DNA of 64,000 nt from Hansschlegelia beijingensis (GTDB taxonomy: Bacteria; Pseudomonadota; Alphaproteobacteria; Rhizobiales; Methylopilaceae), in contig NZ_JACIDR010000001.1 of NCBI RefSeq assembly GCF_014196425.1, forward strand, positions 62,001-126,000, in the 5' to 3' direction. This document shows positions 13,850 through 61,723 of the stretch, in pieces (the first letter of the stretch is position 1; every line of letters begins with the position of its first letter). Position numbers and translations under genes: made by a program. The notes under the pieces are model-generated. The model made no database searches. It was not told where the DNA came from and worked only from the letters and a program-made list of their open reading frames with translations.

Positions 13850-14662
13850 TCAGGGCTTCAGATCCATGGGGATCGCGCCCGGCGCGGCGGTGAGCGAGAT
13901 GGTCACCCGGCGGTTGGCGGCGATTTGCGGCGCGTCCGGGAACATGGGCTCGGTCGAGCCCTTGCCCTGCACGGCGGCGAACCGAGCGTCCGGGACGCCG
14001 TCGGCGGCGAGCAGCCCGCGGACGGCGCTCGCCCGCTCCGCCGAAAGCCGCCAGGCGTCGGTGTTCGCGCCCTCGGACACGCCCGAAGCGGTGTGGCCGG
14101 TGACGGAGATCGGATAGTTCAGCGCCCGCAGCGAGGGCGCGAGCGCCGCGAGAGCGTCCACGACGCGCTGCGAGGGCGCGGCCGATCCGGCCGGGAACAT
14201 CGAGCGGCCGTCCTGGTCGACGATCGCGATCGAGACCCCGTCGGGGCTGTCCTCCACCACGATCTGGTTCGAGATGTCGGCGATCTCGGGCATCGACCGC
14301 AGCGCCTGGCGCAGCGTCGCGGCGGCGCGGGCGAAGCCGCGCGCGGCCGGCTCGGTGTCGCGCCGGTCGGGCGAAAGGGGGCCGGCGAGATCGGAGGTCT
14401 CATCCGGGGTGCGGGCGGTGTTGTTGAGCAGTTCGGTGCGGGCGGGCGAGCCGGCGATGTCGATCACGCCATCGGCGATGACCTGCTTCTGCGAGCCGAA
14501 GGCTTCGCGCATCGAGCCCGCGACGATGGCCATCTTCTTCTTGTCCTGCGACGAGAACGCCACCAGGACCACGAAGAACGCCATCAGCAGCGCCATCAGG
14601 TCGGCGAAGGTGACGAACCAGCCGTGCCCGCCGCCGTGGGCGTCGTGCTTCTTGCGCGCCAT
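13850..14662 (-). CDS. motB: MotB-like stator protein with OmpA C-terminal domain
   Basis: The 270-residue protein has a short cytoplasmic N-tail (MARKKHDAHGG), one membrane helix carrying the ion-binding aspartate (FVTFADLMALLMAFF, Asp21), a plug/linker, and a peptidoglycan-binding OmpA-like domain at about residues 130-255 (SVTGHTASG, RLSAERASAVRGLL, NRRVTISL). It would anchor the MotA ring to the wall and form the ion channel. Its ATG overlaps the motA stop by one base (TGATG). No flagellar structural gene is in the window, so use in flagella is inferred. Confidence 0.88.
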   Translation of the reverse strand: MARKKHDAHGGGHGWFVTFADLMALLMAFFVVLVAFSSQDKKKMAIVAGSMREAFGSQKQVIADGVIDIAGSPARTELLNNTARTPDETSDLAGPLSPDRRDTEPAARGFARAAATLRQALRSMPEIADISNQIVVEDSPDGVSIAIVDQDGRSMFPAGSAAPSQRVVDALAALAPSLRALNYPISVTGHTASGVSEGANTDAWRLSAERASAVRGLLAADGVPDARFAAVQGKGSTEPMFPDAPQIAANRRVTISLTAAPGAIPMDLKP

Positions 14663-15432
14663 CAGGCGGCCGCTTCGAGCAGATCTGCGCGATGCTTCTC
14701 GGGCAGGTAGGCGAGCAGCATCTCCTTGATGACGGCCGGGCTCTTGGACGCCCTGAGTTGCAGCACGCCGTCGATGACCAGCGTCTGGTTGAGCTCGTCA
14801 TGGGCGAACTTGATGGTCAGCTTGTCGGCGATCGGCAGGAAGAAGAAGTTCGCCACCACCGCGCCGTAGAGCGTCGCGAGCAGCGCGATCGCCATGAAGG
14901 TGCCGAGCTTCGAAGGGTCGGACATCTCGGCGAACATCTGCACCATGCCGATCAGGGTGCCGATCATGCCGAAGGCCGGGGCGCAGTCGCCGATCCCGCG
15001 GAAGACCTTCGAGGCCATTTCGAGCCGGTGCAGGTTGAGGTCGCGCTCTCGCTCCAGCGTCTCGCGGATGAAGTTCTCGTCGAAGCCGTCGGCGACGTAG
15101 CGCACCCCCTTGGCCAGGAAGGCGTCGCGCGGGTTGGCCTTGTCGAGACCGACCGGCCCGGATTTGCGCACGATCGCGGCCATCTCGGCGATCTCGGAGA
15201 TCAGGTCGCGCGGGTTGCTGTGCGCGCCCTTGATCACCGTTTTGAACGCCGTCGGGAAGGCCGACAGGATCGCCGACAGCTCGAAGCGGATGAAGGTCGC
15301 CGCGAAGGCGCCGCCGAAGATCACGAGCACGGCGTGCTCGGAATAGTAGCGCTCGAGCCCGCCGCCCTCGTGGATCAGGAACCCCAGGACGCCCGTCCCG
15401 AAGGCGAAGCCGATGATGGTGGCGAAATCCAT
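14662..15432 (-). CDS. motA: MotA/PomA-like stator channel protein
   Basis: The 256-residue protein has membrane segments near residues 4-20, 33-50, 150-170 and 182-200, the usual four. The last pair holds the conserved AFGMIGTLIGMVQMF and ALLATLYGAVVANFFFLPIADKL. The short length and these motifs resemble PomA and other stators of this size more than the longer MotA of Sinorhizobium. A perfect CtrA-type box lies 57-72 bp upstream of the ATG. The partner gene overlaps downstream. Confidence 0.88.
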   Translation of the reverse strand: MDFATIIGFAFGTGVLGFLIHEGGGLERYYSEHAVLVIFGGAFAATFIRFELSAILSAFPTAFKTVIKGAHSNPRDLISEIAEMAAIVRKSGPVGLDKANPRDAFLAKGVRYVADGFDENFIRETLERERDLNLHRLEMASKVFRGIGDCAPAFGMIGTLIGMVQMFAEMSDPSKLGTFMAIALLATLYGAVVANFFFLPIADKLTIKFAHDELNQTLVIDGVLQLRASKSPAVIKEMLLAYLPEKHRADLLEAAA

Positions 15433-15488: not shown

Positions 15489-15504
15489 GTTAAGGCCCTT
15501 TTAA
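15489..15504 (-). promoter_or_regulatory. CtrA box upstream of motA
   Basis: On the minus strand the sequence reads TTAA-AAGGGCC-TTAAC, an exact match to the CtrA consensus TTAA-N7-TTAAC. It sits 57-72 bp before the motA start codon, where an activator would bind. CtrA control of motility genes is widespread in alphaproteobacteria. Binding here is inferred. Confidence 0.7.
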
Positions 15505-32929: not shown

Positions 32930-33009
32930 CGATCGTACCGCCGCTGCCCTCCTTGGGCGTTTCCTCCCTAGACTTGGCCGCTCGCTTTACTGCGGGCGGC
33001 CTTTTTTTT
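32930..33009 (+). ncRNA. mmgR: mmgR/suhB-type small RNA
   Basis: The 3' part reads CTTGGGCG-TTTCCTCCCTAG-ACTTGGCCGCTCGC and runs into a GC-rich hairpin and eight T. A single-stranded TTTCCTCCCT that can pair with Shine-Dalgarno sequences, followed by this GGCCGC terminator stem, is how I remember the MmgR (Rfam suhB) RNAs of Rhizobiales. MmgR limits polyhydroxybutyrate granule formation in Sinorhizobium. The name suhB came from its occurrence near a gene of the same phosphatase family as hisN here. The 5' end is approximate, set from the roughly 77-nt length of MmgR. Confidence 0.72.
32976..33009 (+). terminator. Rho-independent terminator of the mmgR-like RNA
   Basis: GGCCGCTCGC pairs with GCGGGCGGCC (10 bp with one G-U pair, 6-nt loop), followed by eight T at 33002-33009. 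Confidence 0.92.
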
Positions 33010-33102
33010 AGGTCATTTTGTCCAGGCAGCGGGACATTGGCTTCATCCGTGGCGGATTGCAACGGTTTTTCTATCAGACGATAGGAGCCCCCGCGGCAGG
33101 CC

Positions 33103-59799: not shown

Positions 59800-60498
59800 T
59801 TAGCGACGGTCCTCGTCGTCGTCCTCGTCCTGATCTTCGCGCTTGAGCTGGTTGAGCTTCGCGAAGACGCTCTGGACGTCGAGTTCGGCCTCCGCGCCGG
59901 GCTCGGCGGTCGTGACCTCGGCCGGCAGCAGGGTGTCCTCCGGCTCCTCCTTGCGGAGCACCGCGTCGGGATTCGCCTTGCCGGCCTTCGCCACCTCGAA
60001 GTCGAGGTCGATCTGCGAGCAGAGGCCAAGCGTGACCGGATCGGCCGGCGCCAGGTTCTGCGCGTTCCAGTGGGTGCGGTCGCGGATCGCCGCGATCGTC
60101 GTCTTGGTCGTGCCGACCAGACGCATGATCTGGCTGTCCTTGAGCTCAGGATGGTTGCGCACCAGCCAGAGGATCGCGTTCGGACGGTCCTGGCGGCGGG
60201 ACACGGGCGTGTAGCGCGGACCCTTGCGGGGCTTGACCGGCGGCAGCCGCACCTTCGACACCGCCACGCTCAGGCGGTAGTCCGGGTTCTTCTGCCCGCG
60301 CTCGATCTCTTCGCGGGTCAACTGGCCCGAGGTGATCGGGTCGAGGCCACGAATGCCCTGCGCCGCCTCGCCGTCCGCCACCGCCTTCACTTCGAGCTCG
60401 TGCAGCTTGCAGAAGTCGGCGATCTGCGCGAACGACAGCGACGTGTTCTCGACGAGCCAGACCGCGGTCGCTTTCGGCATCAGCGGCGCGTTCGACAT
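59800..60498 (-). CDS. trcR: DUF1013 protein, cell-cycle regulator TrcR family
   Basis: The 232-residue protein starts MSNAPLMPKATAVWLVENTS, a helix-turn-helix-like unit (FAQIADFCKLHELEVKAVAD), with a second similar unit later (NAILWLVRNHPELKDSQIMRLVGTTKTTIAAI). Its C-terminus is highly acidic (REDQDEDDDEDRR). DUF1013 is confined to alphaproteobacteria and is annotated as the cell-cycle transcriptional regulator TrcR. That role is taken from family naming. The ATG at 60498 has GAGGAG nine bases upstream. DUF1192 lies divergent to it. Confidence 0.88.
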   Translation of the reverse strand: MSNAPLMPKATAVWLVENTSLSFAQIADFCKLHELEVKAVADGEAAQGIRGLDPITSGQLTREEIERGQKNPDYRLSVAVSKVRLPPVKPRKGPRYTPVSRRQDRPNAILWLVRNHPELKDSQIMRLVGTTKTTIAAIRDRTHWNAQNLAPADPVTLGLCSQIDLDFEVAKAGKANPDAVLRKEEPEDTLLPAEVTTAEPGAEAELDVQSVFAKLNQLKREDQDEDDDEDRR

Positions 60499-60726
60499 CT
60501 GCAATACTCCTCTCGCTCCGTCCGCCGGAACTGCGACGGAGCCCTGACCGATATCTCGATGACGGGATCGGGTGGATATAGGCCTTTCGGCATATCCGCG
60601 CAACGGAGCCGGAGACCGGACTTCTCGTCTTCGGCGCCCGCTCCGGATCGGGACTCGCGGCGGCGCCTTGCGGCCGCACGTCCCGCTGCGGCACGGTGCC
60701 GGTCCCGGCGCGACAGGAGATCAGAC

Positions 60727-60927
60727 ATGGCCGCGTTCGACGACGAACTTCCCCGGGCCCCCGCGGCGTCGCCGGAGCACGTGATCGGGCAGGATCTATC
60801 GACGCTTTCGGTGGAGGAGCTGACGCGGCGCGTCGCGGTGCTGAAGTCGGAGATCGAGCGCCTGGAGGCGGCGGTCGCGGCCAAGACCGCGCACCGGAGC
60901 GTAGCGGATTCGCTGTTCCGCTCCTGA
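60727..60927 (+). CDS. DUF1192 small coiled-coil protein
   Basis: The 66-residue protein matches DUF1192. An N-terminal acidic patch (MAAFDDELPR) is followed by LSTLSVEELTRRVAVLKSEIERLEAAVAAK, a short coiled coil, and the ending ADSLFRS. Function is unknown in this alphaproteobacterial family. AGGAG lies seven bases before the ATG. The next feature downstream is a CtrA box 12 bp beyond the stop. Confidence 0.9.
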   Translation: MAAFDDELPRAPAASPEHVIGQDLSTLSVEELTRRVAVLKSEIERLEAAVAAKTAHRSVADSLFRS

Positions 60928-60938
60928 AACTCCAGGAC

Positions 60939-60954
60939 TTAACGCTCTGTTAAC
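60939..60954 (+). promoter_or_regulatory. Perfect CtrA box upstream of a small RNA candidate and rcdA
   Basis: TTAA-CGCTCTG-TTAAC matches the CtrA consensus TTAA-N7-TTAAC exactly. It lies about 30 bp before the apparent start of the small RNA candidate and 245 bp before rcdA. Confidence 0.7.
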
Positions 60955-60969
60955 CTTTCGTCGGGCTCA

Positions 60970-61051
60970 ATATCGGCGAGTGGTTTTCCTGCCCACTCGG
61001 TACGCCTCCCTATGATCAGCCTCCGGCCGCCCCCTCCGGCGGCCTTTTTTT
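60970..61051 (+). ncRNA. Candidate small RNA with exposed CCTCCCT and intrinsic terminator
   Basis: A 7-bp hairpin (CGAGTGG/CCACTCG, 60977-60999) is followed by an unpaired TACGCCTCCCTATGATCAG and a terminator hairpin with seven T. This is the architecture of alphaproteobacterial small RNAs that mask ribosome-binding sites, and it echoes the mmgR-like RNA at 32930. There is no reading frame of note. The 5' end is approximate. Confidence 0.55.
61025..61051 (+). terminator. Rho-independent terminator of the small RNA candidate
   Basis: GGCCGCC pairs perfectly with GGCGGCC (6-nt loop), followed by seven T at 61045-61051. Confidence 0.9.
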
Positions 61052-61054
61052 GGC

Positions 61055-61070
61055 TTAACGTTTCGGTAAC
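61055..61070 (+). promoter_or_regulatory. Near-perfect CtrA box upstream of rcdA
   Basis: TTAA-CGTTTCG-GTAAC differs from TTAA-N7-TTAAC by one base. It lies 129-144 bp before the rcdA ATG. A GANTC methylation site (GACTC, 61075-61079) adjoins it. Confidence 0.55.
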
Positions 61071-61198
61071 CCTCGACTCAGGTCGGCTGGGGACAAGCGG
61101 CCGGTTGGTCCGGCGTTTGCCCACCGGGTCTCGTTGATGCGAAGATCGGGTCCCGCTAGCGTGCGGCGCCCGCGTGGCGTTCCGGAAGGGTGGCGAGG

Positions 61199-61723
61199 AT
61201 GACGGACAGGACCGCGAAAGCGGAGGACGGCGGCGCGGTGTCGTTCGGCGCGCGGCTGGTCGGCTCTGCGGCCTTCACCTCGCTGTTCCGCGAGGGAATG
61301 GCGCTGGTCGAGGAGACCGCCGCCTATCTGGACGGCGACGGACGGACCGAGTCCCGCAGCCTCGGCCGCCCGGAATCGATCGCCTACGCGACCGAGAGCA
61401 TGCGGCTCACCACCCGGTTGATGCAGATCGCGTCCTGGCTGCTGGTCCAGCGCGCGGTCAACGACGGCGAGATGTCGGCTGATCAGGCGCGCGACGAGAA
61501 GCGCAAGGTGCGGCTCAGCCCGATCACCTCCACGCTGTCGCCGGAGATCTTCGGGCGGCTGCCCGAGCGGCTGCGCGACATCGTCGAGCGGGCCGGGCGG
61601 CTGCAGGAGCGCGTGCAGATCCTCGACGCGCAGCTCGACGGCAAGCTGGTCGCCGAAGAGCCCTCGCGCAACCCGCTCGAGGGCCAGATGGAGCTGCTGC
61701 GCCAGGCCTTCGGCCGCGGTTGA
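61199..61723 (+). CDS. rcdA: RcdA, regulator of CtrA degradation (DUF1465)
   Basis: The 174-residue helical protein has the DUF1465 signature: FTSLFREGMALVEETAAYLDG, SIAYATESMRLTTRLMQIASWLLVQRAVN, then a long C-terminal coiled region (ERLRDIVERAGRLQERVQIL). RcdA is an adaptor that joins CpdR-primed ClpXP to substrates including CtrA. The ATG at 61199 has GGCGAGG directly upstream and AAGG nine bases away. A GTG three codons earlier is possible. CtrA boxes upstream would close a feedback loop, since CtrA is known to activate rcdA in Caulobacter. Confidence 0.9.
   Translation: MTDRTAKAEDGGAVSFGARLVGSAAFTSLFREGMALVEETAAYLDGDGRTESRSLGRPESIAYATESMRLTTRLMQIASWLLVQRAVNDGEMSADQARDEKRKVRLSPITSTLSPEIFGRLPERLRDIVERAGRLQERVQILDAQLDGKLVAEEPSRNPLEGQMELLRQAFGRG

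Follow-up and report, generated by a model that had tools for sequence, protein, structure and literature searches.

A divergent BjrC1505-type small RNA gene with a predicted CtrA-dependent promoter upstream of rcdA in Hansschlegelia beijingensis

Introduction

CtrA is the master regulator of the cell cycle in alphaproteobacteria, and we know of few small RNAs (sRNAs) under its control. Closest to the locus described here stands BjrC1505 (RF02356) of Bradyrhizobium and Rhodopseudomonas, an RNA whose level reportedly falls in nodules. For S. meliloti, the entry on Sm84 in Valverde (2008, PMC2573895) places the gene between SMc03988 and SMc03989 and gives a Northern signal of ~80 nt and a sigma-70 promoter. 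The same RNA is entered as SmelC671, of 100 nt on the plus strand, in Schlueter (2010, PMC2873474), and the corresponding part of Reinkensmeier (2011, PMC3927594) names relatives among the Bradyrhizobiaceae and Methylobacteriaceae and identifies it with ReC71. Other described RNAs resemble the locus in single respects: CcnA of Caulobacter, a non-coding RNA of 182 nt at the replication origin, is tied to the cell cycle, has a predicted CtrA site in its promoter and acts on ctrA and gcrA; EcpR1 (SmelC291), encoded downstream of divK-pleD in the rpmG neighborhood, is a conserved Rhizobiales sRNA with cell-cycle targets; and mmgR/suhB (RF00519) carries CCUCCCU ahead of a terminator similar to the one found here.

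Results and Discussion

Organization of the Interval Between DUF1192 and rcdA

The window, as we call the whole 64-kb stretch of DNA that was analyzed, carries on its plus strand a DUF1192 gene (60727-60927; PF06698, E 2e-23), the usual upstream neighbor of the sRNA, and rcdA (DUF1465; 61199-61723, with the ATG at 61199; PF07323, E 1.3e-55). An earlier note on this DNA had described, between the two, a terminated small RNA candidate bracketed by a perfect and a one-mismatch CtrA box, with a GANTC site beside the second box, and all of these elements, likewise read on the plus strand, are present. Box 1 (60939-60954) is a perfect TTAA-N7-TTAAC and the predicted promoter element of the sRNA; the intrinsic terminator (61025-61051) has a 7-pair all-GC stem (61025-61044) followed by 7 T; box 2 (61055-61070), TTAACGTTTCGGTAAC, has one mismatch and is a probable rcdA promoter element; and the GANTC site is a GACTC at 61075-61079. 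The boxes exceed chance: with at most one mismatch, TTAA-N7-TTAAC is matched 7 times on the two strands of the 64 kb, at 4 distinct sites of which two flank the sRNA, where shuffles expect 0.14 matches.

The sRNA gene (60976-61051, ~70-76 nt) is recognized by RF02356 and by our models R2 and R3, and its fold has a z of -2.6. Its start is predicted within 60976-60982, behind a putative -10 element CAATAT (60968-60973) proposed from the promoter profile of 64 loci and the sequence of locus L049. It comprises a hairpin, SL2 (60977-60999), with a CGAGUGG/CCACUCG stem and UCCUG in the loop, placed by folding and by its offset from the box; a linker (61000-61024) with the conserved, anti-Shine-Dalgarno-like CGCCUCCCU, seen in alignments and folds; and the terminator. 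The divergent neighbor at 59800-60603 is TrcR, a transcriptional cell cycle regulator (PF06242, E 2.2e-65), so that three cell-cycle-related elements are clustered here.

Like CcnA, the window gene has a predicted CtrA site in its promoter; it lies between DUF1192 and rcdA, and reading the sRNA as CcnA, which we compared by description only, is not supported. Identity with EcpR1 was rejected: the window gene neighbors DUF1192 and rcdA rather than divK-pleD, and the EcpR1 loop UCCGCCGCAUCU is absent from 60976-61051. So was identity with mmgR/suhB, as the window sRNA scores 16.7 bits against the RF00519 cut-off of 41 and a CtrA box is lacking at 3 of 3 mmgR-like matches. A separate mmgR/suhB sRNA is encoded at 32939-33016 (RF00519, 74.2 bits), with no CtrA-box match nearby in the window scan.

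Family Assignment and Distribution

At E 0.01, a 131-base query matched 18 of 100 other genomes. Eleven of the matches, ten from the same genus and one from another family, fall below E 0.001, and in these the conserved DNA is confined to query bases 47-125 of 131, corresponding to ~60976-61054, so that it is the sRNA and not its flanks that is conserved. At its own cut-off Rfam gave no match at the position of the window sRNA. The BjrC1505 model RF02356 scores 83-101 bits in five relatives; the window reaches 33.7 bits (E 8.5e-5 over 401 bases, E 1.8e-4 genome-wide), below the gathering cut-off of 50 bits, and we therefore speak of a positional ortholog rather than of a formal family member. 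Across the order, 245 of 297 genomes, counting that of the window, have an RF02356 match, which exceeds the cut-off in 212, and none of 14 control genomes has one; the 30 best-scoring loci all have rcdA nearby downstream, and 27 have a detectable DUF1192 gene.

Two RNA-only models, R2 and R3, were built, and R2 was applied to 80 rcdA loci, the best RcdA matches of 319, which are mutually related, a kinship that the shuffle tests reported below ignore. R2 was built from 45 relatives aligned without the window, with the structure set by hand, and the later R3 likewise has the window outside its training set; a model R1 was dropped, as the consensus that RNAalifold returned for the plain alignment lacked both SL1 and SL2. 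R2 matched 69 of the 80 loci at E 0.01 or better, 35 of these 69 being in its training set. The window scores 35.4 bits with R2 and 38.2 bits with R3. Divergent matches of 31-38 bits lie at the same place in L087, L090-L093, L095, L098 and L099, six of which bear 'rhizobium' names; unrelated places reach 22.5 bits with R2, and the match in L048 is marginal. No R2 match was obtained in L020, L033, L054, L055, L057, L065, L069, L083, L086, L094 and L096; L086 and L094 are Methylobacterium, yet the record of Methylobacterium bullatum (L196) has an R3 match upstream of rcdA at 43.4 bits. The viral contigs that were searched contained no RcdA relative.

As a rule DUF1192 precedes the sRNA on the same strand, at most 400 nt away in 54 of the 69 matched rcdA loci, and the terminator would end either of two longer transcripts. 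Both facts would suit a stretch that is no separate gene at all, but either the 3′ UTR of the DUF1192 mRNA with its terminator or a leader of rcdA subject to attenuation. We hold this to be very improbable, as the stretch has a CtrA-type promoter of its own at a fixed spacing as well as covarying hairpins (see below), DUF1192 is undetected in 13 of the 69 loci and far off in 2 (some of these loci are short), and the probable S. meliloti ortholog is entered as a separate RNA of ~80-100 nt. On sequence grounds the terminated stretch is a real sRNA gene, a divergent positional ortholog of BjrC1505. The earlier note had regarded the RNA as new; it belongs instead with BjrC1505, and very probably with Sm84/SmelC671, an RNA family that is already known in soil bacteria, and the new point would be the control of this family by CtrA.

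A class-wide search with R2 matched 52 of 190 genomes at E 0.01, with mmgR-like RNAs among the weak matches. What we conclude from it rests on the best 20 places besides the window's own, which were sorted by eye into 16 family-like, 3 mmgR-like and 1 unclear. Downstream of eight of the 16 family-like matches stands rcdA, at a distance of 1.5 kb in one case. In four others of the 16, in L132, L133, L138 and L140, the sRNA is followed by a gene for an O-acetylhomoserine-type enzyme (as judged by eye) and not by rcdA.

Structure of the Family and of the Window Copy

The family is made up of SL1, SL2 with a CUCCUGU loop, a GACGCCUCCCUGU linker, which in relatives is able to form a small hairpin (SL3) displaying CCUCCC, and the terminator. 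In a 45-sequence alignment 95.2% of the cells pair, and 7 pairs show two-sided change against 3.8 in shuffles; in this same alignment, which was not fitted to the structure, pair types are not above shuffles (19 vs. 20.5). A 66-sequence alignment, which was fitted to the structure and is thus biased toward it, has two-sided change in 18 of 25 pairs against 9.6 in shuffles, and all 6 SL1 pairs and all 6 SL2 pairs change on both sides. The helices of the sRNA covary.

In the window, the offset from box to SL2 is 39 nt, compared with 56-66 nt in 51 loci, which indicates that SL1 (about 18 nt) has been lost and that promoter and SL2 abut; folding of the window copy predicts no hairpin ahead of SL2, and SL3 is likewise not predicted. 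The CAATAT motif is separated from the box by 3 nt more than in L049, so that transcription could start anywhere in 60976-60982, a start at the late end probably cutting into SL2. The copy retains the SL2 stem, the linker with CGCCUCCCU (CCUCCCU) and the terminator, all of which are features of BjrC1505, and shares with it the place between DUF1192 and rcdA and a CtrA box, which the 5′ end of the Rfam model includes; it differs from BjrC1505 in its score below the cut-off and in the missing SL1 and SL3.

These losses make a decaying copy a serious rival explanation, one in which the gene is being lost from this lineage: box 1 and the terminator persist, but the RNA, deprived of SL1 and SL3, does little. 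The R2 score of 35.4 bits contrasts with 74-100 bits in the nine near relatives L021-L029; in Hansschlegelia plantiphila (L020, RcdA 84% identical) neither R2 nor R3 found a match in 6.5 kb around rcdA, and a same-genus genome (G005) has no RF02356 match, so that this group may be able to do without the RNA, and its copy in the window may be in decay. A tree of three neighboring proteins puts the window on its own branch, with weak support nearby. What argues against decay is that box 1 is perfect, that the SL2 stem, CGCCUCCCU and the terminator are intact and that the promoter abuts SL2 without SL1. We judge decay to be rather unlikely and prefer a functional sRNA without SL1, a copy that would indicate which element of the RNA can be lost in evolution.

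A CtrA Box at the sRNA Promoter

CtrA boxes were called over the 80 nt that precede the RNA at a minimum of 7 of 8 letters with a 7-nt spacer. Each of the upstream and downstream tests covers 69 sequences, the window among them, and the figures are quoted without it; L048, near a contig end, was excluded from the upstream count, which leaves 68 testable loci. A box precedes the sRNA in 64 of these and in the window, compared with a mean of 8.2 and a maximum of 16 in shuffles of the 69 sequences and with 6-16 of 69 when spacers of 5, 6, 8 or 9 are taken instead of 7. Its position is constant as well: 61 of the 64 boxes start 35-37 nt ahead of where the model begins. Together, the 64 loci give the promoter profile TTAAC-N6-TTAA(G/C)CTTTC followed by an AT-rich -10, and the window box has the layout of a CtrA-activated promoter, with TTAA-N7-TTAAC over the -35 region as counted from the predicted start. 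Among the best class-wide matches, 16 of 16 family-like ones carry a box no more than 70 nt upstream, its distance being less constant (-12 to -53), and the 3 mmgR-like ones and the unclear one have none. The first 40 or so positions of the RF02356 model seem to represent a CtrA-type promoter rather than RNA.

The sRNA is thus probably controlled by CtrA, as the earlier note had supposed, with box 1 at promoter distance from the gene, an arrangement shared by the 64 of 68 loci. In some genomes of other orders we find the RNA with a CtrA box and no rcdA beside it, which means that the link to rcdA is not obligatory, and the tie of the sRNA to CtrA appears to be firmer than its tie to rcdA.

The explanation that we favor, and in which we have reasonable though not strong confidence, is that of a trans-acting BjrC1505/Sm84-type sRNA lacking SL1, activated by CtrA through box 1 and repressing translation. 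Phosphorylated CtrA would bind box 1 over the -35 region and activate the sRNA; the short intrinsic terminator would stop this transcript ahead of rcdA, itself transcribed from its own promoter carrying box 2; and the sRNA would offer the UCCUG of the SL2 loop and the CCUCCCU of the linker to ribosome-binding sites, most likely repressing translation, so that CtrA would gain a post-transcriptional output beside RcdA. The family relation, the structure, the terminator and the conservation and spacing of the box were computed, and we infer the activation by CtrA, the start site and the mode of action.

The Box Before rcdA and the GANTC Site

The earlier note had let CtrA drive both the RNA and rcdA. 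The first half finds support from sequence in the 64 of 68 loci; the second is plausible in the window and patchy elsewhere. With L041 excluded (its sRNA-to-rcdA gap is 1080 nt), a box lies between terminator and rcdA in just 27 of 68 loci and in the window, compared with a mean of 2.6 of 69 in shuffles, and it is perfect in 9 of 69. L057, which offers 41 nt upstream, was excluded from the loci without a matched sRNA; of the 10 testable ones, 6 carry a box no more than 350 nt upstream of rcdA, 4 lack one, and L020 has a box-2-like TTAAGCTTTCGGTAAC there. Box 2 may plausibly be a CtrA site of the rcdA promoter in the window.

Could both boxes serve rcdA, with CtrA at box 1 acting on an upstream rcdA site or repressing the sRNA? 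CtrA boxes that overlie a promoter can also mediate repression, rcdA of Caulobacter is a CtrA target with several promoters, and the 6 of 10 loci just mentioned keep a box with no sRNA matched. We nevertheless find this improbable, because the distance of box 1 to the sRNA is kept in 61 of 64 loci, whereas the gap between sRNA and rcdA varies from 95 to 1080 nt, and because rcdA of S. meliloti is unresponsive to the CtrA that binds its region: the relevant part of Pini (2015, PMC4433202) has CtrA at the rcdA promoter region by ChIP-seq and rcdA unchanged upon CtrA depletion. In agrobacteria, several rcdA starts and CtrA sites further upstream than in Caulobacter are given in PMC10469942, and a passage of PMC7200025 has rcdA of Hyphomonas not regulated by CtrA. 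A CtrA-driven sRNA gene in the interval would explain the observations in S. meliloti and agrobacteria. If that is true, some of the CtrA sites assigned to rcdA would need reassignment.

The GANTC site beside box 2, although present as the earlier note had it, is probably incidental. As a conserved element it was rejected, since GANTC occurs in 23 of the 69 terminator-to-rcdA intervals (window included) compared with 30.4 in shuffles, and its frequency does not exceed chance, with 74 sites in the 64 kb, one per ~865 bases, where dinucleotide shuffles expect 336. This ~4.5-fold rarity in the window is as expected under CcrM methylation.

Relation to Sm84/SmelC671 of S. meliloti

In the S. meliloti Ak57 record CP090106.1 (labelled pSymB, 3.7 Mb) the gene order is DUF1192, DUF1465, rpmE, and R3 matches an RNA between DUF1192 and DUF1465 at 43.4 bits (27.2 bits to RF02356). 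Genes of Ak57 were counted from zapA beside 6S RNA, with zapA taken as SMc03976 and one unannotated gene allowed, and by this count DUF1192 and DUF1465 are SMc03988 and SMc03989; the distance from 6S RNA to the sRNA is 13.0 kb in Ak57 and 14.3 kb in strain 1021. The S. meliloti ortholog of the window RNA is very probably Sm84/SmelC671. Sm84/SmelC671 and ReC71 of R. etli very probably share with the window RNA the same place, a similar size and the same strand; Sm84/SmelC671 differs in a long SL2 of other sequence and a UUUCUCCCU linker. The record (L195, L197, L198) carries tkt, gap, rcdA, rpmE and 6S RNA, and with this content it looks like a mislabelled chromosome.

Two perfect CtrA boxes are found in Ak57, at positions 1171 and 1345 of L195 and thus separated by 174 bp, and a perfect box lies 35 nt upstream of the sRNA ortholog. 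The CtrA peak in S. meliloti may sit at either perfect box, the second lying nearer to rcdA. The sigma-70 promoter listed for Sm84 in the entry cited above neither supports nor excludes CtrA. Our literature search found no paper joining BjrC1505, Sm84 or SmelC671 with CtrA, and none joining Sm84/SmelC671 to BjrC1505; the original BjrC1505 paper (Madhugiri 2012) was outside its scope and may say more. The single paper found to cover both Sm84/SmelC671 and CtrA is PMC7143759, whose SmelC671 row carries no sigma-factor entry.

If the family is CtrA-controlled, the whole order gains a conserved CtrA output. A broader picture can be put forward tentatively, as a possibility that we hold to be somewhat short of even: that BjrC1505 and Sm84/SmelC671 are one widespread alphaproteobacterial family and a direct, conserved CtrA output, that the CtrA peak in the S. 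meliloti rcdA region lies partly or wholly at the sRNA promoter, that the RNA is a general anti-Shine-Dalgarno repressor and that the lineage of the window has reduced it to a single-hairpin core, all of this holding jointly.

Possible Targets and Mode of Action

The two exposed pyrimidine motifs of the sRNA resemble anti-Shine-Dalgarno sequences, and the pertinent part of PMC3927594 describes such loops in further sRNAs of Rhizobiales. A 14-base sequence exactly complementary to the core was matched 149 times in 145 of 249 genomes, and the backwards pattern once. Those matches that were compared with the RF02356 sites listed fall on the sRNA itself, and at least a few others (e.g., in G004 and G240) do not; at the level of the pattern, no conserved perfect target was apparent.

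Pairing of the linker with the starts of ctrA, gcrA and dnaA, compared in 15 genomes with 196 putative gene starts of the same loci, showed no consistent enrichment, and the low percentiles were isolated ones (dnaA in G185 and G057, ctrA in G218 and G004). Against shuffles, the regions from -300 to +50 of ctrA and gcrA had median percentiles of 0.60 and 0.70, with single low values for ctrA in G029 and G004 (0.02) and for gcrA in G065 and G041 (0.05). The start regions of rcdA had a median percentile of 0.23 over 61 sequences, with 7% of them no higher than 0.05; so slight a bias could come from any ribosome-binding site. These pairing tests are weak, having no accessibility term, uncertain starts and a background that includes the tested genes. 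The earlier note had proposed the sRNA as a new arm of feedback onto CtrA; such feedback is possible and finds no support here, as consistent pairing was seen with none of ctrA, gcrA, dnaA and rcdA.

Elsewhere in the window, the minus strand has a perfect CtrA box (15489-15504) 57 nt upstream of an open reading frame on this strand (14662-15432) that reads MotA-like by eye and is plausibly a CtrA-controlled motility gene.
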